From Lepiota brunneoincarnata (lineage: Eukaryota > Basidiomycota > Agaricomycetes > Agaricales > Agaricaceae), in assembly GCA_023014365.1 (NCBI GenBank), contig JAEBUN010000001.1:558001-622000 (forward strand): DNA of 64,000 nt, in the 5' to 3' direction. Of the stretch, positions 1 through 16,540 are shown piece after piece. The position numbers were made by a program, and so were the translations under genes. How positions within the stretch are numbered: the stretch's first letter is position 1; every line of letters begins with the position of its first letter. The notes below the pieces were generated by a model. The model had not been told where the DNA came from. It saw nothing but the letters and a program-made list of their open reading frames with translations, and did not search any database.

Positions 1-1398
1 ATACTGGCCAAAGGATTACAAAGTCAATTTTTCCATCTATCTATGGTCAGGCTCACATTCGTGCTCTTACTCAGGAGAATATCCAAACCGCATTCCGTAA
101 AACTGGGGTTGTTCCTCTTGACCGTCAAGTTATTTGCTCTGAGCTCTTTCAGCCTAGCTTGGAAACTTCTCGTAATGCACCCATGCCCCTTCCATTCAGC
201 ACTCCTATTCGCAACACTGCTAGAGCCATTACAATGCTAGCTGAAAAGCAAAATGTGGATGCTCAGAGTTCTATACCACTTGTTAGCGACGATTCTGACC
301 CAGAGGATGAACATGGTGTTAGCTTTGATGTTCCTGAATCTCTTGTTGACATGTTTGCTCGGCTCACAACCAACATCAACCATCCACTCTTTGCTCCTGA
401 CCCTCTTCCTTCCAACACTCCTCCCCCGGAGTACAACCCATTTGTTATGTCACCAGTCAAGAAGCAAACCGATCTTCTTCAGTTTGTACCTCAAACTGAA
501 CGGGAAAGTCTTCTTCAGGCCACATTACGGGATGCAGCATTACGCGAAGCATATCACAAAGGCCAGCTACAGGGCCAGCAGGCAGCCATCATCCTCCAGC
601 ATGTCTACTGTGGTCACATGCAAAATCAACTTCACGCAAAGGAGAAGAAAGCCAAGTCAAAGACATCTCGCAGTGCACTCTTGGGTGGAGTTCCTCGTTT
701 GTTGACTGGAGATGAGTTTGTTGAGGCAGTTGTGGCTAGAGAGCAGGAGATGAAGTAGGAAGATGAGGAGAAGCAGAATAAGCGCACAGTTAGGGCTTAT
801 CACTCAGAGAAGTTAAAGGAGTGGAAGGAAAAGGAGGCAAAGAGAATCAAGGAGAATAATTGGGAGAGAGTGAACTACAAGCTTTATATGGAGGTATGGA
901 AGGAAGACAACTTGGATCGGAAGGACAATGGTTTGGCTCCCCTCCCCCATCCTGGTCCACTGGGTCCACTCCCAAAACCAGTCCCAAAACCTACCCTTGC
1001 ACAATCTGCAAGGCATTGTGGCTTTCAAAACCTCTTCCAGCCCCAGGAAAAGGCTGCAAGTAGTGACTCTGACATTACTCATACATTTTCCAGTGATGAC
1101 GAGCACCAGGGGAGTAACAACGATGATGATTGAAATATTTCTGAAGGATTTACAGGGGTTTCGATGGCGGTGTGACCAAATGTCACACGCGGCGTCACAC
1201 TGTATAAAGGACTCGTTTTGTGCTTAAATTTCGAAGTGATACTATGCATTCAAAACTTGACGAAAAATTCTGTAATTCTGTAATTATATTTTGACAAAGT
1301 GTATCTACATATGTACAAAATTCGAAGTGGATATGTTGAGCTTTGTCCCCACTGTGTGCAAAATAAGTTTCGGTGTATAAAGGAGTGGTGAGTGACTG
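1..1398 (+). mobile_element. Right end of a pogo/Tc1-type DDE transposon
   Basis: The end of a cut-and-paste DNA transposon whose left end lies outside the window. It contains the C-terminal part of the transposase (3-1133) and about 265 bp of noncoding right end. The boundary can be placed because Helitron unit 3 has the matching uninterrupted sequence near 6843 (CTAACTGCTCAG). In unit 1 the same sequence resumes at TA 1399-1400, directly after AGTGACTG. Read inward on the minus strand, the element end starts CAGTCACTC; pogo-family termini often start CAGT, and the TA target fits the superfamily. The motif TGTATAAAGGA occurs twice near the end (about 1200 and 1374). The left terminal repeat needed for proof is not visible. 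Confidence 0.7.
3..1133 (+). pseudogene. DDE transposase, C-terminal part, with an in-frame amber stop
   Basis: Open from the left edge in one frame to the TGA at 1131-1133, except for one TAG at 756-758. Near position 60 it reads HIRALTQENIQTAFRKTGV, the conserved region after the DDE catalytic core in fungal pogo/DDE-1 transposases. A Pro/Ser-rich stretch and a charged Lys/Glu-rich tail follow (around 760-900), then an acidic C-terminus (SSDDEHQGSNNDDD). The frame continues cleanly for 125 codons after the TAG with the same charged composition, so the stop is probably a recent nonsense change. The DDE catalytic residues would lie left of the window. Confidence 0.75.
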
Positions 1399-1429
1399 TA
1401 ACTGCTCAGTGAGAGAAATGCAAAGTAAA

Positions 1430-2040
1430 TTGATATAATCAATGCTAAGATCAGGATAGTGGTAAATTGTGATAGAAAGTAACCACACATGCATGCCAAC
1501 AGCATGGATTGTGGTTAGTTTCATACTGTGTTTAAAATATAAGTAGTATAAGATATTCAGACATTGCTAGATTGTGATGGAAATTGATTACACATGCATG
1601 CCAAAGGCATGGATTGTGGTCAGTTTCCTGCTGTGTTCAAGATAACAGTAACATAACATATTCAGATAATGCTAGATTGTGATGGAAATTGACTACACAT
1701 GCATGCTGAAGGTATGGATTGTGGTCAGTTTCCTGCTGTGTTCACAATATAAGTAACACAACATATTCAGACAATGCTAGATTGTGATAGAAATTGACCA
1801 CCCACTACTGTGTTCAAATATAAGTAACATATTATACCTAGACAATGCTAAGATTAGGATAATGCTAAATTGCAATAGAAATTGACCACACATACATGCT
1901 GGAGGCATGGATTGTGGTCAGTTTCATGCTGTGTTCAAGATATAAGTAATATAACATATTCAGACAATACTAAATTGTGATGGAAATTGACCACACATGC
2001 ATGCTGAAGGCATGGATTGTAGTCAGTTCCCTACTGAATT
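1430..2040 (+). repeat. About 105-bp AT-rich repeats with a hairpin core (unit 1)
   Basis: The string GGATTGTGGT recurs at 1506, 1611, 1716 and 1909, giving a period near 105 bp with one shortened copy. Each repeat holds an imperfect palindrome: GACCACACATGCATGC, a 4-5 base spacer, then GCATGGATTGTGGTC. Flanking parts of the repeat (AATGCTAGATTGTGATGG and ATATAAGTAACATAACATA) are also shared. Equivalent arrays lie in units 2 and 3. Confidence 0.85.
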
Positions 2041-2722
2041 CAAGATATAAATAACATAACATACTTGAATAATACTAAACTTTAGATAATATAAACAACT
2101 AGCACACTCCAAGTGCCCAGGCTGAAGAGTCTGGGCATCTATTCAAATAATGCTAAGGTCATCAAGATATTGATTGACATGATCATGTAATCCATTCAGT
2201 GAATGCCAAAGTCATCAAAGCATTGATAAACAAGATCATGTGATCTATTCAGTCACTTACAAACATCAGTAAATAAGGTTATGTGACTTCCAAAAAAAAT
2301 TTTTCACTCAAATCTCTAAACTTAACTATAATGCTAAAGTCATCCAAATTTGTGTGTAAGCTCAAGCATGTATTGTGATTAGTTTCATGCTGTATTTAAT
2401 ATATTAGTAATATAATATACCTAGACAATACTAAGCTTCAGATAATATAAACAATTGTTACACTCCAAGTGCCCAGGCCGAAGGGTCTGGGCATCTATTC
2501 AGATAATGCTAAAGTTATTAAAATATTGTTAAATGCAATCATGTGATCCAGAAAAAACTTATACTAAATTCATTTAACTAACAGATTTCAAGTACTCAAA
2601 CCATCTCAAATAATACCAAAGTCATCAAAACATTCATAAATAAGGTCATGTGATCAAAATCCAGGCAAACAAATATCACCAAATAAAGTCATGTGACCTG
2701 ACAAAATTTTGTTATTATACTC

Positions 2723-2757
2723 CCTGTGCCGAAGGCACAGCTAGGGTCTTACCCTAG
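2723..2757 (+). terminator. Helitron 3' terminal hairpins, unit 1
   Basis: CTGTGCC-gaa-GGCACAG followed by CTAGGG-tctta-CCCTAG. Two consecutive hairpins ending in CTAG fit the Helitron rule of a 3' hairpin and a CTRR terminus. In this element class they are thought to stop rolling-circle transfer; here they separate units 1 and 2. Confidence 0.8.
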
Positions 2758-2942
2758 TCTTCTTATATAGAATGGGATGTCGAGGGTGGGATGATGGCTG
2801 CTGAGTCAGTTCTTACTAATAGTGACTAAGCAGTTTTGATTGGCTGGCTGGGGGGGTCGATGACAAGGAGGGGGTTTGGGAACCCATAAATTTGGGAATC
2901 TGGGGGGGTGTGGGGCGAGACGTTGACGGCGAAATTACGAAA

Positions 2943-3730
2943 TAAATTGATAGGGAGAATATTGAGGAATAAATTGATCTTTGTTTGAGAAGAAGGGGGT
3001 ATGGAGGGTGCTACAGTAGCTCAATCAACACGATACCTGGGGGGCCTAGGGAAGCCAATTGGCCCTCCCCTCCGGTGAAGACGCAAACTAAATCAATAGA
3101 GAGAACATTAAGCAATAACATCTTTGATGGTAATATTGATGGGGGTATTCCCAGTGCCAGAGGCGTTCGTTCTCTATATAAATTTGGGATTGGGGAGCGG
3201 CCTTGGGCCTTCCAACCTCCTGATTTAATGGGCATTTATTGATAGGTGGGATGTTGACCAATTGGACATGGCCCCTGATGGCCCATCAGAGGGGAAAATG
3301 CAAAAAGCGAATTCTAGCTGGCTTCCACTGGCTCTGTTACTACAATAACCTGGGGATCCCTGGGGATTAGGATTGCGAAGACTTGACAAAAGTCCGCAAA
3401 TGAATCAATAGGGAGATTGTGGAGGAACACAAATTACACCATAATTCTGAAGGAAATTTGTCCCAGGGGCCTGCATTCCTTCCACATCTGCGCTACTTTT
3501 TCCAGCACTATCTATCCAATGGGTGCACATGTTCCCAAAGTCCTGGACCAAATCGATAGGACCAGTATCGTGCAACACTCAATTTTCCATCGAACATGAT
3601 ATACAATATTGCTGCTCATATACTCATTCCTCTCGCGCCAGACCGGGGGATCACGTGTAGGGCATCCACTCCATAACTCCCAAGCAATCCACGAATAAAT
3701 CATTAGGTGGAATGTCGAGCAATCGGAATT
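2943..3730. repeat. Degenerate ~147-bp periodic motif, unit 2
   Basis: Six copies of a motif close to AATCAATAGGNGGAATNTTGAGCAAT, with ATAGG (or a variant) at about 2950, 3096, 3242, 3408, 3556 and 3703. The spacings are 146, 146, 166, 148 and 147 bp. Sequence between motifs is less conserved, though GCGAAGAC and AAGTCCGG-like strings often precede the motif. On the minus strand the motif reads like LN-IPPINKY or LFLSILPIDS, but the varying frame between copies argues against one continuous reading frame. Function unknown. Confidence 0.75.
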
Positions 3731-4589
3731 TCTTTGGAAATACGGGAATTCTGGCAATTGCTGACAAATCCGGATCAATGCCCATCTGAGCTTCTCACGC
3801 TCAGGCCACCATTGATCTTCCTGCCACCATCCCTCTCCAACCGTAAAAAATTGCTAGAAGTATGGATAAATTCCCAAAAATTCGGATAATGTTAAAATAA
3901 TACTTATTGTTAAACTGGATCAAAGAATACATTCAAAATCATTGTAAATCGCAAATAAACTGTAACAATAATCATAAAAATTCAGGAAAATTAGAAATAA
4001 ATTACAGATAAATCCAACTGCTCAGACAATGCAAAGTAAATAGTGGAAGTTTGATATAATCAAAACTGAGTGACCACACACCCATACTGCAACCAAGATA
4101 TAAGTAATACAATCTACTCAGATAATGCTAAGATCAGGATAATACTAAATTGTGATGGAAAGTAACTACACATGCATATTATATCCAAAATATAAGTAAT
4201 ACAATATACATAGACAATGCTAAGATCAGGATAGTGCTAGATTGCAATGGAAATTGACTACACATGCATGCTGAAGGCATGGATTGTGGTTAGTTTCATA
4301 CTATGTTCAAAATATAAGTAATATAACATATTCAGACAATGCTAGATTACAATAGAAAGTGACTACACAAGCATGCTGAAGGCATGTATTGTGGTCAGTT
4401 TCATGCTGTGTTCAAGATATAAGTGACATGACATATTCAGAAAATCCTAGATTATGATGGAAAATAAGGTATGGATTGTGGTCAGTTTCATGCAGTATTT
4501 AAGATCTGAGTAACATAACATATTCAGATAATGCTAAGCTTCAGATAATACCAGATGATATTAAATTATTTGTTCAAGATATATAATAA

Positions 4590-5345
4590 ACAATTAGCAT
4601 ACTCCAAGTGCCTAGGCCAAAGGGTCTGGGCACCTATTTAGATAATGCTAAAATGATCAAAATATCAGTAAATAAGGCTATGTGGCTCAGAAAATTTGAA
4701 TCTCTCTCAAAACAAGTAGATTATATATTCCAAGTGCCCAGGCTAAAAGGTCTGGGCATCTATTCAAATAATACTAAAAATATTAAAATATCAGCAAATA
4801 AGATCATGTAGTCTGAAACAATTAGTATACTCCAAGTGCCCAGGCCAGTCTGGGCATCTATTCAGATAATGCTAAAATGATTAAAATATCAGTAAATAAG
4901 ATTATGTGACTCAGAGAAATTGAATCTCTCTTAAAACAAGTAAACTACATACTCTAAGTGCCCAGGCTGAAGGATCTGGGCATCTATTCAGATAATGCTA
5001 AGGTCATTAAACAGGATCATATGATCCATTCAGTTGATACCAAACATTAGTAAACAAAGTCATATGACTTCCATAAAACTGTTTTTTCACTCAAACCTTC
5101 CCAAACTCAACTATTATTAAAATGTTTGTTCAAGATATATATTAAACAATTAGCATACTTCAAATACCCAGACTGAAGGATCTGGGCATCTATTTATATA
5201 ATGCTAAAGGCATTAAAATACCAGTAAACAAGGTCATATAATTTAGACAAATAGCTGTCATCAGTTGATTTTAAATCTCAAACAATTAGTGCAATCCAAG
5301 TGCCCAGGCCAAAGGGTCTGGGCATCTATTCAGATAATGCTAAAG
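4590..5345 (+). repeat. Hairpin repeats TGCCCAG...CTGGGCA (unit 2)
   Basis: About six copies of a 100-130 bp repeat starting with a variant of ACTCCAAGTGCCCAGGC, seen near 4598, 4726, 4830, 4948, 5155 and 5293. Each has inverted arms TGCCCAG and CTGGGCA around a loop like GCCGAAGGGT, then ATCTATTCAGATAATGCTAA and a variant of AAATAAGGTCATGTGACT. Single copies also occur in unit 1 (near 2110, 2470) and unit 3 (near 7450, 7810). The loop resembles that of the terminal hairpin of every unit. Confidence 0.8.
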
Positions 5346-5543
5346 TTATTAAAATATTGGTAAACATGATTATGTGATTCAGAAAAACTTATCCTAAGCT
5401 CATTTAACTAATACATTTCAAGTACCTAGGCTAACTCTGATAATTAAATAAGGTTATATGATCAACATATTGACAAATACAGACAAACAAATATCAACAA
5501 AGTCATGTGACCTAACAAAACTCAACTTTTTGTAATTATACTC

Positions 5544-5578
5544 CCTGTGCCAAAGGCACAGCTAGGGTCTTACCCTAG
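5544..5578 (+). terminator. Helitron 3' terminal hairpins, unit 2
   Basis: The same double hairpin as at 2723-2757, with a CAAAGG loop variant in the first hairpin. It ends in CTAG, immediately followed by TCTATAAGAGAATGG of unit 3. Confidence 0.8.
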
Positions 5579-5771
5579 TCTATAAGAGAATGGGACAACG
5601 AGCCTGGGATGATGGCTGATGACCAATTTTTAGTCAGCGCTGACCAATCCTGACATAATATTTTCTGATTGGCTGGCTGAGGGGGTGGATTCCAAGGAGG
5701 GGGCCTGGGGGCCTATACATTTCGGGATCTGGGGGGGTGGATAGCGAGATGTGAACGGCGAAATTAGTAAG

Positions 5772-6560
5772 CAGGTTGATAGGAAGAATGATGAGGAATA
5801 AATTGATCTTTGTGGGGGAAGAGGTGTCTGTAGAGGGCTGGGAAATGGTTCAATGGCATTGATACTTGGGCTTCCGATTGGGGCACGCTGGCCCTCCCCT
5901 TTCGCGAAGACGCAAAGCGAATCAATAGAGAGAACAATGAGGAATAACACCTTTGATGGGAATATTGATGGGGGTATTCCCGGTGCCAGAGGCGTTCATT
6001 TGCAATGTAAATTTGGGAGTGGGGGGCGGCTATAGGCATGGCAATCCTCTGATTTAACGAGTATTTATTAATAGGTGGAATGTTGAGCAATTGGACATGG
6101 GCTTTGATGGCCCATCAGAGGGGAAAATGCAAAAAGCGCATTTGAGTGGCTTCCACTGGCTCAATTGCTACAATACTTTGGTAGTCATTTGGGGTACAAA
6201 CTGCGAAGACCTCGCAGAAATCTGGAACAGAATCAATAGGGAGAATGTGGAGGAATAGTAATTACACTGTAATTTAAAAGGAAATTCATCCCAGGGCCTT
6301 GCAATTATCCTATATCTTTGCTACATTGACACATGTTACCCCTCATCTACGTGCACATGCCCTCAAAGTCCTGGACCATACCCATAGGAACAATATAGTG
6401 CAACACTCAATTTCATTTTGTACATGATATTGAATATCTCCGCTCATATACTCATTCCCCTCGCGCCAAACCTGGGATTCACGTGTCATACATCCCCATC
6501 ATGGCCTCCAAGCAATCCACAAATAAATCAATAGGTGGAATGTTGAGCAATCGGAATTTC
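5772..6560. repeat. Degenerate ~147-bp periodic motif, unit 3
   Basis: The same six motifs as in unit 2, with ATAGG at 5779, 5925, 6071, 6236, 6384 and 6531. The spacings (146, 146, 165, 148, 147) reproduce the pattern of unit 2 to within one base, including the single longer third gap. Confidence 0.75.
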
Positions 6561-6899
6561 TTGGGGAACATGGAAATTCTGGCAATTGCTGACACATCCG
6601 GATCAATGCCCACCTGAGCTTCTCACGCCCCGTCCACCATTGATCTTCCTGCCACCATCCCTCTCCAGCCATAAAAAATCGCTAAAAATACGCTTAAATT
6701 CGTGGAAATTCGGATAATATTAAAAGAATACTTATTGTTAAACAAGACCAAGCAATATATCCAAAATCATTGTAAATAGCAAATAAAACATAAAGATAAT
6801 TGTAAAAATTCAGGAAAATTAGAAATAAATTAAAGATAAATCTAACTGCTCAGTTACAGGTGAGAGAAATGCAAAGTAAATTGATGTAATCAATGCTAA

Positions 6900-7400
6900 G
6901 ATCAGGATAGTGGTAAATTGTGATAGAAAGTAACCACACATGCATGCCAACAGCATGGATTGTGGTTAGTTTCATACTGTGTTTAAAATATAAGTAGTAT
7001 AAGATATTCAGACAATGCTAGATTGTGATGGAAATTGATCACACATGCATGCCAAAGGCATGGATTGTGGTCAGTTTCCTGCTGTGTTCACAATATAAAT
7101 AACACAACATATTCAGACAATGCTAGATTGTGATAGAAATTGACCACCCACTACTGTGTTCAAATATAAGTAATATATTATACCTAGACAATGCTAAGAT
7201 TAGGATAATGCTAAATTGCAATGGAAATTGACCACACATGCATGCTGGAGGCATGGATTGTGGTCAGTTTCATACTGTGTTCAAGATATAAGTAATATAA
7301 CATATTCAGACAATGCTAAATTATGATGGAAATTGACCACACATGCATGCTGAAGGCATGGATTGTAGTCAGTTCCCTACTGAATTCAAGATATAAATAA
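6900..7400 (+). repeat. About 105-bp AT-rich hairpin repeats (unit 3)
   Basis: A near copy of the 1430-2040 array in unit 1, with the same order of repeats and the same shortened copy. The shared irregularities mean the arrays were copied as a block rather than expanded independently. Confidence 0.85.
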
Positions 7401-8067
7401 CATAACATACTTAGATAATACTAAGCTTTAGATAATATAAACAATTAGCACACTCCAAGTGCCTAGGCTGAAGGATCTGGGCATCCATTTAGATAATGCT
7501 ATGGTCATCAAGATATTGATTAACATGATCATGTAATCCATTGAGTGAATGCCAAAGTCATCAAAACATTGATAAACAAGATCATGTGATCTATTCAGTC
7601 ACTTACAAACATCAGTAAATAAGGTCATGTGACTTCCAAAAAAGATTTTCACTCAAATCTCTAAACTTAACTATAATGCTAAAGTCATCCAAATTTGTGT
7701 GTAAGCTCAGGCATGTATTGTGATTAGTTTCATGCTGTATTTAATATATAAGTAATATAACATACCTAGACAATACTAAGCTTCAGATAATATAAACAAT
7801 TGTTACACTCCAAGTGCCCAGGCCGAAGGGTCTGGGCATCTATTCAGATAATGCTAAAGTCATTAAAATATTGTTAAATGCAATCATGTGATCCAGAAAA
7901 AACTTATACTAAATTCATTTAACTAACAGATTTCAAGTACTCAAACTATCTCAAATAATACCAAAGTTATCAAAATATTCATAAATAAGGTCATGTGATC
8001 AAAATACAGACAAACAAATATTACCAAACAAAGTCATGTGACCTAACAAAATTTTGTTATTATACTC

Positions 8068-8102
8068 CCTGTGCCAAAGGCACAGCTAGGGTCTTACCCT
8101 AG
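8068..8102 (+). terminator. Helitron 3' terminal hairpins, unit 3
   Basis: The same CTGTGCC-aaa-GGCACAG and CTAGGG-tctta-CCCTAG pair, followed with no spacer by TCTATAAGAGAATGG, the 5' end of unit 4. Confidence 0.8.
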
Positions 8103-8303
8103 TCTATAAGAGAATGGGACAACGAGTCTGGGATAATGGCTGATGACCAATTTTTAGTCAGCGCTGACTAAGATTTGTCAGCTGACATAATATTTTCTGA
8201 TTAGCTGGCTGAGGGGGTGGATTCCAAGGGGGGGGTCTGGGGGCCTATAAATTTGGGGATCTGGGGTAGTGGGTAGCGAGATGTGAACGGCAAAATTACA
8301 AAG

Positions 8304-9090
8304 CAGGTTGATAGGAAGAATGATGAGGATAAATTGATCTTTGTGGGGGAAGAGGTGTCTGTAGAGGGTTGGGAAATGGTTCAATGTCAATGATACTTGG
8401 GATTCCGATTGGGGCACACTGGCCCTCCCTTTTCGCGAAGACACAAAGCGAATCAATAGAGGCAACAATGAGGAATAACACCTTTGATGCGGACATTGAT
8501 GGGGGGTATTCCCAGTGCCAGAGGCGTTCGTTTGCTATGTAAACATGGGTTTGGTGAGCGGCCATGGGCATGGCAACTTCCCAATTTAATGGGTATTTAT
8601 TGATAGGTGGGATGTGGAGGCATTGGACATAGGCTTTGATTGCCATCAGAGGAGAAAATGCAAAAAGCGGATTTTCAATGCCTTCCACTAGCTCAATTGC
8701 TACGATAATTTGGGGACCTTGGGCGATTAGGATTGCGAAGACTGGACAAAAGTCTGGAACGGAATCGATAGGGAGAATACTGAGGAACAATAATTCTAAC
8801 ATATATTAAAAGGAAATTCACCTCAGGGTCCTGCTGTCCCTTGGATATCATAGAACCTTGAGGGATTGGACATATGATGAATATGAAGATGTTCCTACAG
8901 TTTGAACCCGGCTCAATAGGCACAATATGATACAACAATCAATTTATGTTCACAAAGAAAATAAGGTATTGTCGCTCATAAAACGGTTTTCTACGTGCCA
9001 GACCTTGCACCCACATACCGAGCATCCACCCAATACCTCCCAAAAGGTCTGGGAATAAATCAATAGGCGGGACATTGAGCAATGGGAATT
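8304..9090. repeat. Degenerate ~147-bp periodic motif, unit 4
   Basis: Six motifs with ATAGG at 8311, 8456, 8603, 8768, 8916 and 9063, spaced 145, 147, 165, 148 and 147 bp. It is the third copy of the layout seen in units 2 and 3 and lies upstream of the Rep-helicase gene, where a Helitron 5' terminal region or promoter is expected. Confidence 0.75.
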
Positions 9091-9807
9091 TCTTTGAAAT
9101 TGTCCGAATTTTACAAATTGCTGACAAATCCGGATCAATGCTCAGAGGTCGCGACTGATGGCAACTGCCAATTACCTGATGTCCGACATACCCGACATCC
9201 AAACTTATCAGGGTTAAATAGCTGACCTGACAGCAGGGATGGCCTTCTTTCTGACCCCCACCATTGATCTCCCTGCCACCAAGGTGAGTCGTCCCCCCCC
9301 CAGTCACGAATATTCGTTAAAAATACGCAAAAATATGCAAAAAATCGGAAAATATTAAAACAATATTCGCTACCAAACAGGACCAAACGAATCATCGAGA
9401 ATCATCGTAAATCGCAAAAATCCGTAAAATTAACCGTAAAAATTCGTTCTAATTCAGGAAATTTTGAAATAAATTATAGATATCCAGCAAACAATATTCG
9501 CTACCAAACAGAACCAAATAAATCATCGAAAATCATCGAAAATCGCAAAAATCCGTAAATATATTCGTAAATATTCTCTAAAATTCAGAAAAAATTAAAA
9601 TAAATCATAGATACCCAGTCTAGCTGCTCAGATACAGGTGCTCATAATAAACCATCCCAACTTTGTGGATTAAAGGTGAGTAAAATGCGATTTAAATACC
9701 TAAAAATTGGTAATTGATTGTTTAATTAGAATAAATTAGTGATCTTTGAATAAGATGTGAGTATATTGTCATAATGTTTTTTTGCTAATAAAATATATTG
9801 TTTTTAG

Positions 9808-12800
9808 GAATCCACTCTCACCTCCCACAACTCCAGAGCAAGTACATGAGGCTGCTCGCACTACTGAACGAGAACAATGTTTGCAGATGACTTCTCCTGA
9901 GGATCGTAGGGAGCGCAACAGACCTCCTCCCCCAATTCCTTCACAGCCAAACTTTGGAGCTATGCCTATTCTTCCTCCCCCAGTTATGGTTTACCAGACT
10001 GGCCAGGAACTTGCTAGAGCTCCCATCCCCCCAGTTGTGGATTTCCAGACTGGCTAGGGATCTGTGGGAGAACTCTCTGCTGGAGTCCCTTTATTGCCTC
10101 CATTTAATCCTCAAGCAGGACCTTCTAGATCTGTGGCTGAACCTTCTGGATCTGTGGCTGGACCTTTTACTGGAGTATCTTCTGTACCCTTGCTACCTCC
10201 ATTTAATCCTCAAGCAGGACCTTCTGCTTCAAGAAATATTGTTCTCCCTTCTCCAGTGCAATTACGAGAGGGTTGGGATAGACCTCTGGAAAATCCTATT
10301 CCTAGAAACATACCACAACTCCCTGAGCCTGTTCAAAGAGGCAGAGGTAGAGGTAGACATGGTAGGCCCAATGTGGCCCAGACCAATATGGACCAGGCAA
10401 GACTTGCACTGCCAGTACCACAGGCCAATCTGGCTCCAACAGGTGTAGAATTATTGGAACAACAACTTAGAGAGCAAAGAGAACAAAGAGAACAAGAAGA
10501 ACAAAGAGTTTTACAGGAACAAAGAGAACAAGAAATACAAAGATTATTGCAACAACAGAGAGGGCAGGGAATACAAAGAGTACAGCAGGAGCAAAGAAAA
10601 CAAGAAATACAAAGATTGACACAAGAACAAGAGGAGCAAAGAGAACAAATAGAACATAGGGAACAAAATTTACAAAGGCAGTTGAATAATTGGAGAAACG
10701 AGCATCAAGCTGAACTTGAAGAGGATAGGGACCCACAAGCCCCAGAGCAGGATAATGATCTTGCACAGCAGGCTCTACAAGATTTAGGGCAATTCCAGGC
10801 TCAGGCAGGGAGAAATCCAGAATTACAAGATATACCAAATGAACTACCCAGGATATTTGAACAAAATCAGGAGAATATCTATAACAATGATCCTATCCCT
10901 GAAAGAGGACCTATTCCAAAGGGATGTCGCCCCTACTCTGAACCACCTGAAATCCACACTTTAGGTCTTATGAATATTGTGTGTGGATATTGTGGTGCTC
11001 TTCACTTTACAAGTGAAAAACTTACAAGCTCTTGAGTTAATAATCCTCAATTTGGAACTTGCTGTCTTCAAAATGAAGTCCGGTTACAGCCATATCATCA
11101 TCTGGATGATGTTCTTCAAGATTTAATGTGTGGACTTAGTCCTCAGTCTGATACATTCAAGAAAAATATCAGATGCTATAATGCTTCACTGGCCTTTACA
11201 TTACTTGGGGTCAAGGTTGATGCCAGTGTTACTCGAGCCTCTGGTCCTTACTGCTTCAAAATCTGTGGAGAACTCCACCATCTCTCAGGGGCTCTTCAAC
11301 CAGCTGAAAACCAGCCTGCACAATATGCTCAAATATATATATATGATCCAGAGGAGTAAAGACAGATCAGAAATCAAAACAATGATGGCTTTGGTGATCC
11401 TGTTATCATGGGTCAACTCCAGGATATGCTACACCGGACACATCCCTACATTCATGCATATAAGCAGGCATATCAAATCATGCGTGAAAAGCCTCCAGGA
11501 GAGCAGCAGACTATTACTGCCCAACTACATATTGATCCTGTCCAAGACCAGAGGCGATATAATGCTCCTACTGCTGATGAGATAGCAGTCATTGTTCCTG
11601 GCTCTGGCATGGAGGAGAATGTCTCTGACCACAGAGATATTGTATTGTGCTTACATGGTGGTGGACTCAGGAAAATTACACATCTCAAGTCTTCCTATGC
11701 TACCCTCCACTACACATTGCTCTTTCCACATGGTGATAATGGCTGGCACCCTAAAATTCCTATGTTTCCTGGACCCAAAGGTACCCGGAGATCCGAGTAT
11801 GTTCCCCAGAGATGCTACTATGCATACTGCTCCCATGTCCACAATGATCCCCAGCCTCCATTGTTCTGGGGTGGCAGACTATTCCAACAATCTGTTGTTG
11901 ATGCTTGGGCCTCAAATGAGCAGAGTATTCTCAACTGGACTAGGGCAAATCAAAAGAAGCTTAGAGCTGATCTATACCAAGGCCTCCAGGATGCTGCTAT
12001 TGGTGATAGAGATGAGAATCTCAACCTTGCCAACCATGGCCAGAGGGTTATACTTCCTTCAACACATGTGGGGGGTGAGCGTTACATGAACCAGCTATTC
12101 CAGGATTCTATGGCTATCTGTAGGGCTTTCAGGAAGCCTGATATTTTCTTGACTATGACTGCCAATCCAAACTGGCCTGAAGTATAGGAGGCTTTATTCA
12201 AGGAGTTGGGTCCAGGCCAGAAGAAACAGTCTGTCTCAGATAGGCCTGATATTGTGGCAAGGGTCTTTGAGCAGAAGAAGAATGCTCTTCTCAAGGAAAT
12301 TAAAGGTGGCCTATTTGGAAAGGTGGTTGGCATGGTTCATACCATTGAATACCAGAAGTGAGGATTACCCCACATGCATCTCCTCATTTTCCTGGATGGT
12401 CCTGATAAGATCAGAGATGCTGCCCATGTTGATTCAATTGTTTCTGCAGAGTTGCCAGATCCCAACACTGAGCCTGTTCTCTATGGTATTGTGACTTCAT
12501 CAATGCTCCATGGTCCCTGTGGTCCTGAATATCCTAATGCCAAGTGTATGGTGGATGGGAAGTGTAGCAAGGGCTATCCTAAACCATTCAATGATCAGAC
12601 TATATATGGAGATGATGGCTATCCAAAATATGTCAGATGCAATAATGATCGTACATTCACCAAGGGCACATTTACCTTTGATAACCGCTGGGTTGTCCCT
12701 TTTGCCAAGTACCTTAGTGCCAAATTTGGATGTCATATCAACTTGGAGATCTGTGCCTCTGTTTTTGCTGTCAAGTACATCCACAAGTATGTTTACAAGG

Positions 12801-15209
12801 GCCATGATCGAACTACTCTTGAGATTATCTCAAGACCAGACCAACAGCACAATGAGGTCAAGGAATATCTGGATTCTCGCTATGTATCCCCAATTGAAGC
12901 TCTCTGGCATATCTTTGAATTCCCAATGCATGGAGAGTTCCCTCCTGTCTATCGCTTGCCTGTGCACTTGGAAAACCAACATATGGTGTACTATGATCCA
13001 GAGCAAAATGTGGATGAAGTTCTTAACCACCCAAATGTTGATAAGACCATGCTTACTGCTTGGTTTGAGGCCAACCGCAATTATCCTCATGCTCGCAACA
13101 CTTTATACCAGGACTTTCCTAGATTTTGGGTGTACAACAGCAAAACTGGCAAGAAGTGGAAACCCAGGCAAAGAGGAGAGGCTATTGGAAGGATGTTCTT
13201 TGCATCTCCAAGTCAAGGAGAGCGCTTCTACCTCCGTATGTTGTTGACAGTTGTTCCAGGTAAGTCAAGGAGAGATTTCTACCTCTAAACATTGTTGACA
13301 GTTATTCCAGGTGCTACATCCTTTGCAGACTTGCGCACTTTTGATGATGTCCAGTATAACTCATTCAAGGAGGCATGTTTTGCAAGGGGATTGTTACAGG
13401 ATGACCACGAGTGGATTCAGTGCTTGCAAGAAGCTAGCCAAATACAGACAGGATCATTGCTCCGACGTTTATTCATCATTATTCTCCAACATTGCAATCC
13501 TACCTCACCTGATGTTCTTTGGGAAAGGTTCAGAGAGAGTATCTGTGATGACCTTAGGAGACAACTTGGACATATCCCTCACTATCAGGACAGGGAATTT
13601 ACACAGGAGGAAGTCTATGACTATGGCTTATACCTTCTCAACCAAATCCTGATGAAGTCTGGAAAGTCTTTGGCTGACTATCCACCTATGCCACTTTCTG
13701 TAGGACCTGGGAATGGAAGACCTTGGGAAAATCTCCCAGGAAATTACTTGATTCATCTGGAGCTTGACTATGACCGCAATGAATTGGAGGAGAGAGTTCA
13801 CAGAAACCGGAGGGACTTCAATCCAGAACAGTCTGCAGCTTATGAAGCTGTTCTTAACTCTGGATGATAACTTGGGAAAGATGATTTTCATCCACAGTGC
13901 AGGTGGTGGTGGAAAAACCTTTGTCTGTAATACCATTGCTGCTGCTGTGAGGTCTAGAGGCCAAGTGGCTCTTTGTGTGGCCTCTTCTGGCATTGCTGCA
14001 CTTCTCTTAGAGGGTGGTAGGACTGCCCACTCCAGATTCAAGATCCCGATTCCTGCCTTTCAAGAATCTGTTGCAAATATCAAACCAAATACTCAGGTGC
14101 ACAGATTGATACAGGAGACCAAAATCATCATCTGGGATGAAGTTCCTATGCAACATATCCATGGTATCAAGTCTGTTGATAGATGTCTCAGAGACTTACT
14201 CCACAAGAATAGTTCCTTTGGTGGAATCACTGTGGTATTTGGAGGTGATTTCCGTCAAACACTTCCTGTAATACCAAAGGGACTTAGACAACAGATTGTG
14301 GGTGCCTCAATAGTCAAAAGTGCACTCTGGGATAATATGGAGGTCCACTACTTGGTGCGCAACATGTGATTGAGGAACTCTCCTGAGGCTGCAGAGCATG
14401 CTGCATGGCTGTTGGATATTGGATCTGGGAGAAACATGGATGATACTGGAATGATTGAAATCCCTGCCAGAATGTGCTGTGCTGACTTGGATGGATTGAT
14501 TGAATCTACCTATCCTGGGATTGCTCAACTCAACAAACCTGATGATTATTTCTTGGACAGAACAATTCTATCTGCCAGAAATGATGAGGTAGATGACATT
14601 AATGATGAAATTCTTGCCAAGTTTCCAGGGGAGGTTCATGCACTGCATAGTGCAGATTCTGTGCTGTTGGAGAATGACCAGATGAATAATTACCAGCCTT
14701 ATCCAGTGGAGTATTTAAACTCACTCAGAGCAAGTGGGCTTCCATTGTCAAAGTTAAGACTAAAGATTGGATGTCCTGTGATGCTCCTCAGAAACTTGGA
14801 TCCAGAGAAGGGACTTTGTAATGGGACCAGGATGATTGTGACAGAAATCAGACACAGAGTGTTACAGTGTAGGATTATTACTGGAGATGCTCAATTTGCT
14901 GGACAGATGGTGATGATTCCAAGGACTGTATTGACACCCTCAAATGAGGACTTGGCTGTTCCCCTTCAGTGCATACAGTTTCCAATTCGACTTGCTTTTT
15001 CCATGACCATTAACAAGTCACAAGGACAATCAGTTGCATATGTAGGAATTAATTTACAGCAATCAGTATTTTCTCATGGCCAATTGTATGTAGCATTTTC
15101 TAGATGTACATCTGGGGACAGGATTAGAGTAGTGTTACCAGAGGATAATGAGACCAGAAGGACTCCAAATGTAGTGTACAATGAAGTATTTGGACAACTT
15201 AGATTGTAG
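9808..15209 (+). pseudogene. Helitron Rep-helicase (HUH endonuclease plus Pif1-type helicase), multiply disrupted
   Basis: The rolling-circle transposase of unit 4. The exon probably starts after the TTTTTAG acceptor at 9807. In order: a Pro-rich N-terminus; a Gln/Glu-rich coiled coil (about 10450-10700); a zinc-type segment CGYCGALHF...CC; the HUH motif GLPHMHL (His codons 12371-12373 and 12377-12379); the tyrosine motif KYIHKYVYKG (12773-12802); then a Pif1/RecD-like helicase with Walker A GGGGKT (about 13900), Walker B IIIWDE, GGDFRQ, and C-terminal motifs INKSQGQS and YVAFSR. One frame runs through TAG 10055, TGA 11033, TAA 11357, TAG 12185 and TGA 12359. A +1 (or -2) shift near 13860 moves to another frame, which holds TGA 14367 before the final TAG 15207-15209. 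Residues on both sides of each stop match the family, so decay looks recent. Confidence 0.9.
13260..13310 (+). other. Intron-like 51-bp tandem duplication inside the Rep-helicase gene
   Basis: Coding sequence at about 13210-13261 (AAGTCAAGGAGAG ... TTCCAGGT) is followed directly by a diverged second copy (AAGTCAAGGAGAG ... TTCCAGGT). The duplication joint makes GTAAGT at 13260-13265 and TTATTCCAG at 13302-13310, good 5' and 3' splice sites. Removing 13260-13310 restores the family reading VVPG-ATSF and also removes the in-frame TAA at 13286-13288. Confidence 0.75.
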
Positions 15210-15494
15210 ATAGATATTTATACAGTATTTGTGATATTCAATGATTAAAGATTGAGTCAAATAAATAGACCATGATCCATGCCAAAGGCATGGATTGTGG
15301 TCTATCCGGAGATGAGATGAGAATAAGAGAATCATACCTGTGCCAAAGGCATAGGGGTGATTATCTTACTATAGACAAATGTATGAATGATCTACACATC
15401 AAAACAGTTACAAACAATGTCATGTGACTCAAGAAAACTCAAAATTTTGCCAATCTCACTATAAACTCAACTATAACTCTTCTCTTAATATACT

Positions 15495-15530
15495 CCCTGT
15501 GCCGAAGGCACAGCTAGGGTCTTACCCTAG
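15495..15530 (+). terminator. Helitron 3' terminal hairpins, unit 4
   Basis: The fourth copy of the double hairpin ending CTAG. Upstream of it are GACCATGATCCATGCC-aaa-GGCATGGATTGTGGTC (from about 15270, 16-bp arms with two mismatches) and ATCATACCTGTGCC-aaa-GGCATAGGGGTGAT. The 3' end is thus a chain of hairpins sharing the loop core GCC-RAA-GGC. Confidence 0.8.
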
Positions 15531-16540
15531 TTCATAATGTTCTTTTAATTCTTTTTCATGTTGTAGTCTTTGTTGTTCTGCTAGTTCTTCAGCAAAACTT
15601 GTTCAAGTGTGTGTGGATGTTGATGCACTTGGAGCAGGTGAGTCGAATGGGGATGGAGGATAGAACAGCAACAGTGTTTGAGTGGGTCATGGTGTAGGAT
15701 TTCTTCTGGGATCCAGGTTTTGTATACCTGGTCCTGAGATTCTGTTTCTTGATTTGGGATGAGGGGGTGATGGGGATTCTCAGGCTGAGAATTTCTTTGG
15801 AGGTATGGTGATATTTGTCTAGTGATCGATTATCACTAGAAGTATGAAGAATTGGGTGGCAATTATGGGTATTCCTGAATACAGGTTCCATGATCTGATG
15901 ACACAACAGTGGCAGGGGTACATGATGCATTCAAGTTCTAGGGTGATTATTCGGTAGGCGATGAGGGTGGTGGTTGAGGTGAAGACAAATATGAGGAGGT
16001 AAGCCAGGTCTGCTGGCAGGGGTGGGATGGAGAATAAGAACATAGCAATGGCTACAGAGAATGTCACAATTGGCAACAACGTCATATTTCATGACACAGA
16101 GTACCTCGATGCATTCAGTATGTTGGCAGAGCAGAGCAGAGCAGAGGGCGAGCAGGAGATAAGCAGCAAAGTATCTTAGTGTTTTGTTACCTGGGTTAGG
16201 GGTTCGCTCTTGAGTAGCACGGGGTTCGACACAGGATGTCTATACAGACTTGGTCCTGTCCTACTAAGCATGACTTGGAGATGACGGAGCACTATAGTCC
16301 AGCCAGTTTAGAGGCAAAGAGTTATAGGAGGCAAGAACTTTATAACACTAAGATAAGGATACAAGGGTATGGTACAGTATCCTTATATACTACTATGTGT
16401 GGCTATGCTCCTACTATATATATCTGGACCCAGGTAAGTGAGTCATATCTTTATCTATCTAAGTATAGATTGTTCTGATGGTACTTCTGTTTGTTTCAGA
16501 ATGACAGGTCTTATATCTATTTATATACTTTGGGTGCTTC
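15531..16540. other. Helitron 3' flank, no convincing gene
   Basis: About 1 kb between two Helitron-type elements. The minus strand can encode a short hydrophobic peptide (16085-15819; MTLLPIVTFSVAIAMFLFS and a second membrane-like stretch), which might be a remnant of a membrane protein gene, but no family is recognisable. A small AGAGC repeat lies near 16130-16150. A T/A-rich stretch with TATATACTAC lies near 16380-16430. Confidence 0.35.

Follow-up and report, generated by a model that had tools for sequence, protein, structure and literature searches.

The array and its surroundings

The window analyzed here, 64,000 nucleotides of the agaric Lepiota brunneoincarnata (contig JAEBUN010000001.1, called C1 below, forward-strand positions 558,001 to 622,000), holds four plus-strand Helitron units set head to tail. 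Its left edge lies inside a different element, the right portion of which takes up window positions 1 to 1398. This is a 3.38-kb transposon bounded by perfect 27-bp terminal inverted repeats, with a duplicated TA on each side. It spans C1:556017 to about C1:559398, its right end falling at about window position 1398, and it may be a pogo/Fot1-like element. An open frame within it (159 to 758) has no Pfam match. The transposon splits the first Helitron unit, the 5' end of which is at C1:555030, 2,971 bp to the left of the window, and the right portion of which, with a type-A 3' end, occupies 1399 to 2757. Unit 3 aligns to unit 1 on both the left and the right of the insert. The initial annotation began the array at 1401, but there is no Helitron end there.

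Unit 2 (2758 to 5578, 2,821 bp) begins with TCTTCTTATATAG and unit 3 (5579 to 8102, 2,524 bp) is 98.7% identical to the left-most unit of an array on contig C9; both are without Rep. Unit 4 (8103 to 15530, 7,428 bp) carries a broken Rep-helicase gene. All four units close on the same 17-nucleotide 3' end, CTAGGGTCTTACCCTAG, found with 0 mismatches at 2741 to 2757, 5562 to 5578, 8086 to 8102, and 15514 to 15530. The search returned 8 matches, these four sites being counted on both strands, and shuffles gave a mean of 0.06 matches at up to 3 mismatches. Directly after the 3' ends at 2757, 5578, and 8102 comes the TC of the next unit, making three CTAG|TC junctions with zero spacer, as the initial annotation had described them. 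The right terminus of unit 4 reads CTAG|T. Folding places two contiguous hairpins at 15489 to 15530, with CTAG inside the second. Together with the Rep and Pif1 domains, the TC and CTAG ends, and the AT target, these hairpins uphold the original identification of the units as Helitrons.

Several other features of the locus deserve mention. For one gene in the window the best named matches are to Macrolepiota (62%), Leucoagaricus (56%), and Leucocoprinus (55%), as suits an Agaricaceae mushroom. The AT-rich right halves of units 1 to 3 (window 1450 to 2700, 4070 to 5500, and 6900 to 8000) consist of degenerate repeats, in which hairpins with a loop resembling that of the terminal hairpin can be made out by eye. 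When the array flanks are joined (C1:554430-555029 plus window 15531 to 16130), one long minus-strand frame is kept. We assume this frame to be retrotransposon gag-like, and the array seems to sit inside that gag-like gene.

The Rep-helicase genes

The coding pieces in unit 4 lie at 11408 to 15209 on the plus strand and match Helitron_like_N, PIF1, and Pif1_2B. The Helitron_like_N and PIF1 domains are in pieces and stops interrupt the frame, so that the fourth unit does have the Rep-helicase credited to it but not as an intact frame. Long open Rep-helicase frames are present in copies from other arrays. In a copy on C8, Helitron_like_N and PIF1 match at full or nearly full profile length, in separate frames with an intron-like segment between them. 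A Rep search found 16 places, seven of which are 94 to 100% identical and lie, by position, in seven different arrays; the one on C24 is assigned to its array by inference, its ends being unchained and 15.6 kb apart. The other nine places, at 64 to 70% identity, form a second Rep lineage (C60, C5, C79:773268, C32, C6, C27, C47 twice, and C71). Seven of the nine have in-frame stops within the matched stretch, and those on C6, C47:53558, and C71 lie directly to the right of a 5' end of the third variant described below.

The Rep gene holds one further curiosity. At about 13260 to 13310 of the window, a 51-bp GTAAG...TTCCAG segment with an in-frame stop is a tandem duplicate of the preceding exon stretch, and it occurs at the same place in two C8 copies. 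From its sequence it is possibly a predicted intron gained through exon duplication.

Stacking throughout the genome

Is the array in the window unusual? The terminal sequences do occur elsewhere, as the initial annotation had proposed to look for, and a search of the 55.6-Mb genome recognized 37 3' ends of type A and 51 of type B, a total of 88 in which the end at C8:631934, running on into internal repeat sequence, may be spurious. For 5' ends there were 84 matches to the main pattern, chance ones among them (control, 7), and 17 to a third variant. When ends were linked by coordinate, 66 of the 88 3' ends were joined directly to a 5' end (33 of 37 type A and 33 of 51 type B), two of these junctions resting on diverged 5' ends added by eye. 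The result is 21 multi-unit stacks, the one in the window among them. They vary in unit number, as had been anticipated, from 2 to at least 11, with the proviso that in unfetched stretches the chains are known by coordinates only and some (C24 and C76) may be pieces of one longer array. Besides the chains there are 25 single entries: solitary units, orphan ends, and chance matches. No ends on opposite strands lie within 200 bp of each other among the type-A, type-B, and main 5' matches. One C9 unit (C9:254884-265383) is 10.5 kb long and has long minus-strand frames, presumably LTR retrotransposon-like.

The CTAG|TC junction of the window array is thus ordinary for its genome. The initial annotation had stressed gene-less units abutting their likely autonomous source; the junctions stand, but the locus loses its special status, the same junction type being found genome-wide.

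What do the ends of these units have in common? Among 60 extracted units, 58 share GAATGGGA at the 5' end and 59 begin with TC, one short C9 unit having TG. Among the units that begin with the third 5' variant are nine short ones of 182 to 186 bp with a type-B end. The type-A 3' end folds into two contiguous 7-bp hairpins, and CTAG forms part of the second (z scores of -5.7 to -6.0 for three of the four window ends), and one type-B example folded into two adjacent hairpins in the same layout. All 37 type-A ends have CTAG. Type-B ends depart from CTRR, with CTCG in 29 of 51, CTTG in 16, and CTCA in 6. Both types occur within the same arrays, so the expectation that ends would read TC and CTAG throughout held only in part. 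The second hairpin of the 51 type-B ends shows no covariation (pairs GC 27, GT 12, AC 8, and AT 4), a pattern that may reflect CpG decay.

Some 5' termini are repeated or extended, for example by a 17-bp 5' stub ahead of a complete 5' end or by an added TCT or TCTA (C74:51855-51838, C16:919236, C9:249969, C47:67200, C76:39777, and window 2758). Multiple 5' termini of Helitrons are also described in the portion of PMC5148889 available.

Insertion sites

Where the outer flanks were read, the left flank is A in 14 of 15 cases (the C47 and C76 arrays having one shared left flank sequence) and the right flank is T in 14 of 14. The exception is the window array, with G instead of A. The reading covers the ends other than the left ends at C8:2081, C9:1125719, C19:631020, C24:65538, C26:13674, C27:28506, C79:1486896, and C86:22255 and the right ends on C2, C5, and C10 and at C15:929770, C24:40125, C26:34286, C27:21175, and C79:1462458.

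Empty A/T sites, the search for which had also been advised, were found for two arrays. For the C28 array, the two flanks joined together are found as uninterrupted sequence at window 16286 to 16445 (plus strand) and again on C9; for the C9 array, they are found in two uninterrupted copies nearby. Both sites are A^T, and target duplication is absent in the one copy aligned for each. The C9 empty site sets the 5' end of that array at TCTATCTATAAG, four bases to the left of the pattern match. By eye, an uninterrupted stretch at C8:40426 corresponds to the flanks of a short unit that stands alone on C69. The 182-bp units are solitary at three A^T sites and are found within stacks as well. A C6 paralogue was considered as a clean empty site for the window array and rejected, the alignment being gapped around the junction.

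How do the stacks form?

The units of a stack share one orientation, meet at exact junctions, are unlike their neighbors, and lie between A and T where the outer flanks were read. The initial annotation offered two mechanisms, failure of rolling-circle transfer to stop at the 3' hairpin and repeated insertion at the same AT site. It is the second that we favor, the A|TC edge being an AT site that is restored each time: stacks probably grow by single-unit insertions at the left edge of a resident copy, with Rep preferring resident 5' ends. A newcomer inserts at an A^T site without target duplication, as the empty sites of two arrays show. The left edge of the copy so installed, A|TC, is again an AT site, bearing the 5' core TCT....AGAATGGGA at which Rep presumably nicks to start transposition. 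If Rep preferentially targets the left end of resident copies, the 3' end of the next newcomer would be joined to the resident TC with zero spacer and A|TC would be renewed at the new left edge, to which growth would be restricted. Units with either type of 3' end could stack on one another because the 5' core is common to both.

Would the AT rule be enough? Each unit that inserts at A|TC leaves another A|TC at the left edge it creates, so that rule alone predicts both the exact junctions and growth at the left edge. It does not predict their number. Were 88 insertions spread at random over AT sites, the expected number of direct junctions would be, by a rough estimate, about 0.001, against 66 observed, so resident 5' ends must to some degree be preferred.

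Are neighboring units copies of each other? Comparisons were made by global alignment, BLAST values being inflated by internal repeats, and covered 47 units of 1.9 to 3.4 kb among the 60 extracted; of the remaining 13, 5 are shorter than 1.9 kb and 8 are longer than 3.4 kb, and the 60 include neither the split unit 1 of C1 nor left-most units whose left end fell beyond the sequence retrieved. Only 3 of the 47 units have their nearest relative in their own array (shuffle mean, 2.8), and 24 adjacent pairs have a mean identity of 0.879, compared to 0.885 for all pairs (permutation P = 0.77). Across different arrays single units recur, with 44 pairs above 97% involving 31 units; no ordered two-unit pair among the compared units recurs above 97%, and 2 do so above 93%. 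Single units recurring between arrays where ordered pairs do not, units seem to arrive singly. The sole neighbors above 95% are a C79 pair, 99.7% identical, that may be a duplication.

These comparisons weigh on most of the competing accounts. Rolling-circle read-through or circle replication could lay down one unit as a concatemer, or several units could move together as a block. Either would give exact head-to-tail junctions, the process is named for other tandem Helitrons in the text seen of PMC5148889, and the C79 pair fits it. Read-through is nonetheless disfavored as the main source because neighbors resemble each other no more than units taken at random and blocks of two units do not recur above 97%, and units of differing 3'-end type alternate besides; we regard this origin as quite unlikely. 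Tandem duplication as the main source was rejected on the same adjacent identities and absence of ordered pairs. Could circles with joined ends instead enter residents by homologous recombination, or unequal exchange between stacks reshuffle the units? Such a circle would itself carry the exact junction, the units are homologous over long stretches, and one C15 unit (809830-816466) combines a Rep element resembling type A with a type-B end. Yet 31 of the 47 units match a unit of another array above 97% (under a filter requiring 75% coverage by the alignment of the shorter unit, as in some of the nearest-relative listings) while having differing neighbors, and they are not obvious reciprocal chimeras; we regard recombination as highly improbable. 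An assembly artifact scarcely enters into consideration given 21 chains of unlike units with different flanks, and a contig of 3.97 Mb around the window.

A closer competitor keeps insertion and drops the polarity: units might insert at any 5' end, internal G|TC junctions included, so that stacks grow anywhere. The same 5' core would be visible to Rep inside a stack, the left flank of the window array is G, and no left-young age gradient reached significance, whether by a CpG measure (22 versus 14 pairs, P = 0.24), by nearest identity (12 versus 11), or by comparing left-most units with the others (0.969 versus 0.965). Against this stand the A at 14 of 15 outer left flanks and the place of the short units, which hold the right base position in 5 of the 6 stacks that have one; we therefore think growth at any junction unlikely. 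In a test chosen post hoc and on few cases, 6 of 9 short units have a left neighbor and 1 of 9 a right neighbor, whereas 65 of 80 other ends have a right neighbor (Fisher test, 5e-5, or 2e-4 once a diverged 221-bp unit is counted; sign test restricted to the five one-sided cases, 0.06). A short C9 unit and the diverged 221-bp unit, on C15, do have right neighbors, counter to growth at the left edge. Left-edge polarity of stack growth is, on balance, likely.

Single-unit insertion at the left edge may also have a wider form. Over the first ten bases to the right of 14 arrays and solitary units, 5.64 of 10 match the Helitron 5' end, compared to 4.44 at AT sites in the window (P values of 0.002 to 0.008 under three composition controls); this test, too, was chosen post hoc and has few cases. 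Tentatively, then, Rep might prefer any resident 5' end across families that share the core, with first insertions also picking AT sites that resemble a 5' end and stacks growing leftwards. Such polar, self-targeting integration would gather later insertions onto residents, and host genes would tend to be spared.

What does all this offer? With three quarters of the recognized ends stacked beside unlike neighbors, the question of insertion versus rolling-circle origin becomes testable, and insertion is favored. If Helitrons do target resident 5' ends, they integrate less randomly than the AT rule would suggest. The 182-bp units, for their part, provide a small element in which to seek the sequences required in cis.

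Comparison with known systems

Integron gene-cassette arrays are also made of unlike modules added singly at a site that is restored. They serve as a working likeness only; their enzymes and hosts are unrelated to those of Helitron stacks, and no membership is implied.

Among Helitrons proper, the units resemble the canonical Helraiser/Helibat elements, as set out in the accessible part of PMC5876387, in having Rep plus helicase, a 5' TC, a 3' tetranucleotide with a hairpin, and insertion at A^T without duplication. They differ in that most recognized ends are stacked, the terminal hairpin takes in the last tetranucleotide, and CTCG and CTTG occur beside CTAG. The Pleurotus ostreatus elements HELPO1 and HELPO2 are likewise mushroom Helitrons with an AT target, and HELPO2 has a CTTG end; the word "tandem" does not occur in the main text as available (PMC4289320). 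A literature search, which did not extend to many subscription papers, turned up nothing on Helitron stacks in Agaricales, and PMC9674265 and PMC9741609, in their visible portions, concern another subject. A preference of Helitrons for inserting near other Helitrons is cited in PMC12477314. Excerpts of two papers cite tandem arrays, in plants and bats (PMC5876387) and in bat, Drosophila, rice, maize, and plant centromeres (PMC5148889). The latter, in the same excerpts, describes three Helitrons in tandem in Metarhizium acridum, of the Helitron2-like group, for which 5'-end insertion and rolling-circle replication were both proposed and left undecided. That is one case, Helitron2-like, whereas here there are 21 chains of unlike units. 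Tandem Helitrons, then, were already known; what is new is their dominance in one genome, along with data that separate the two models.
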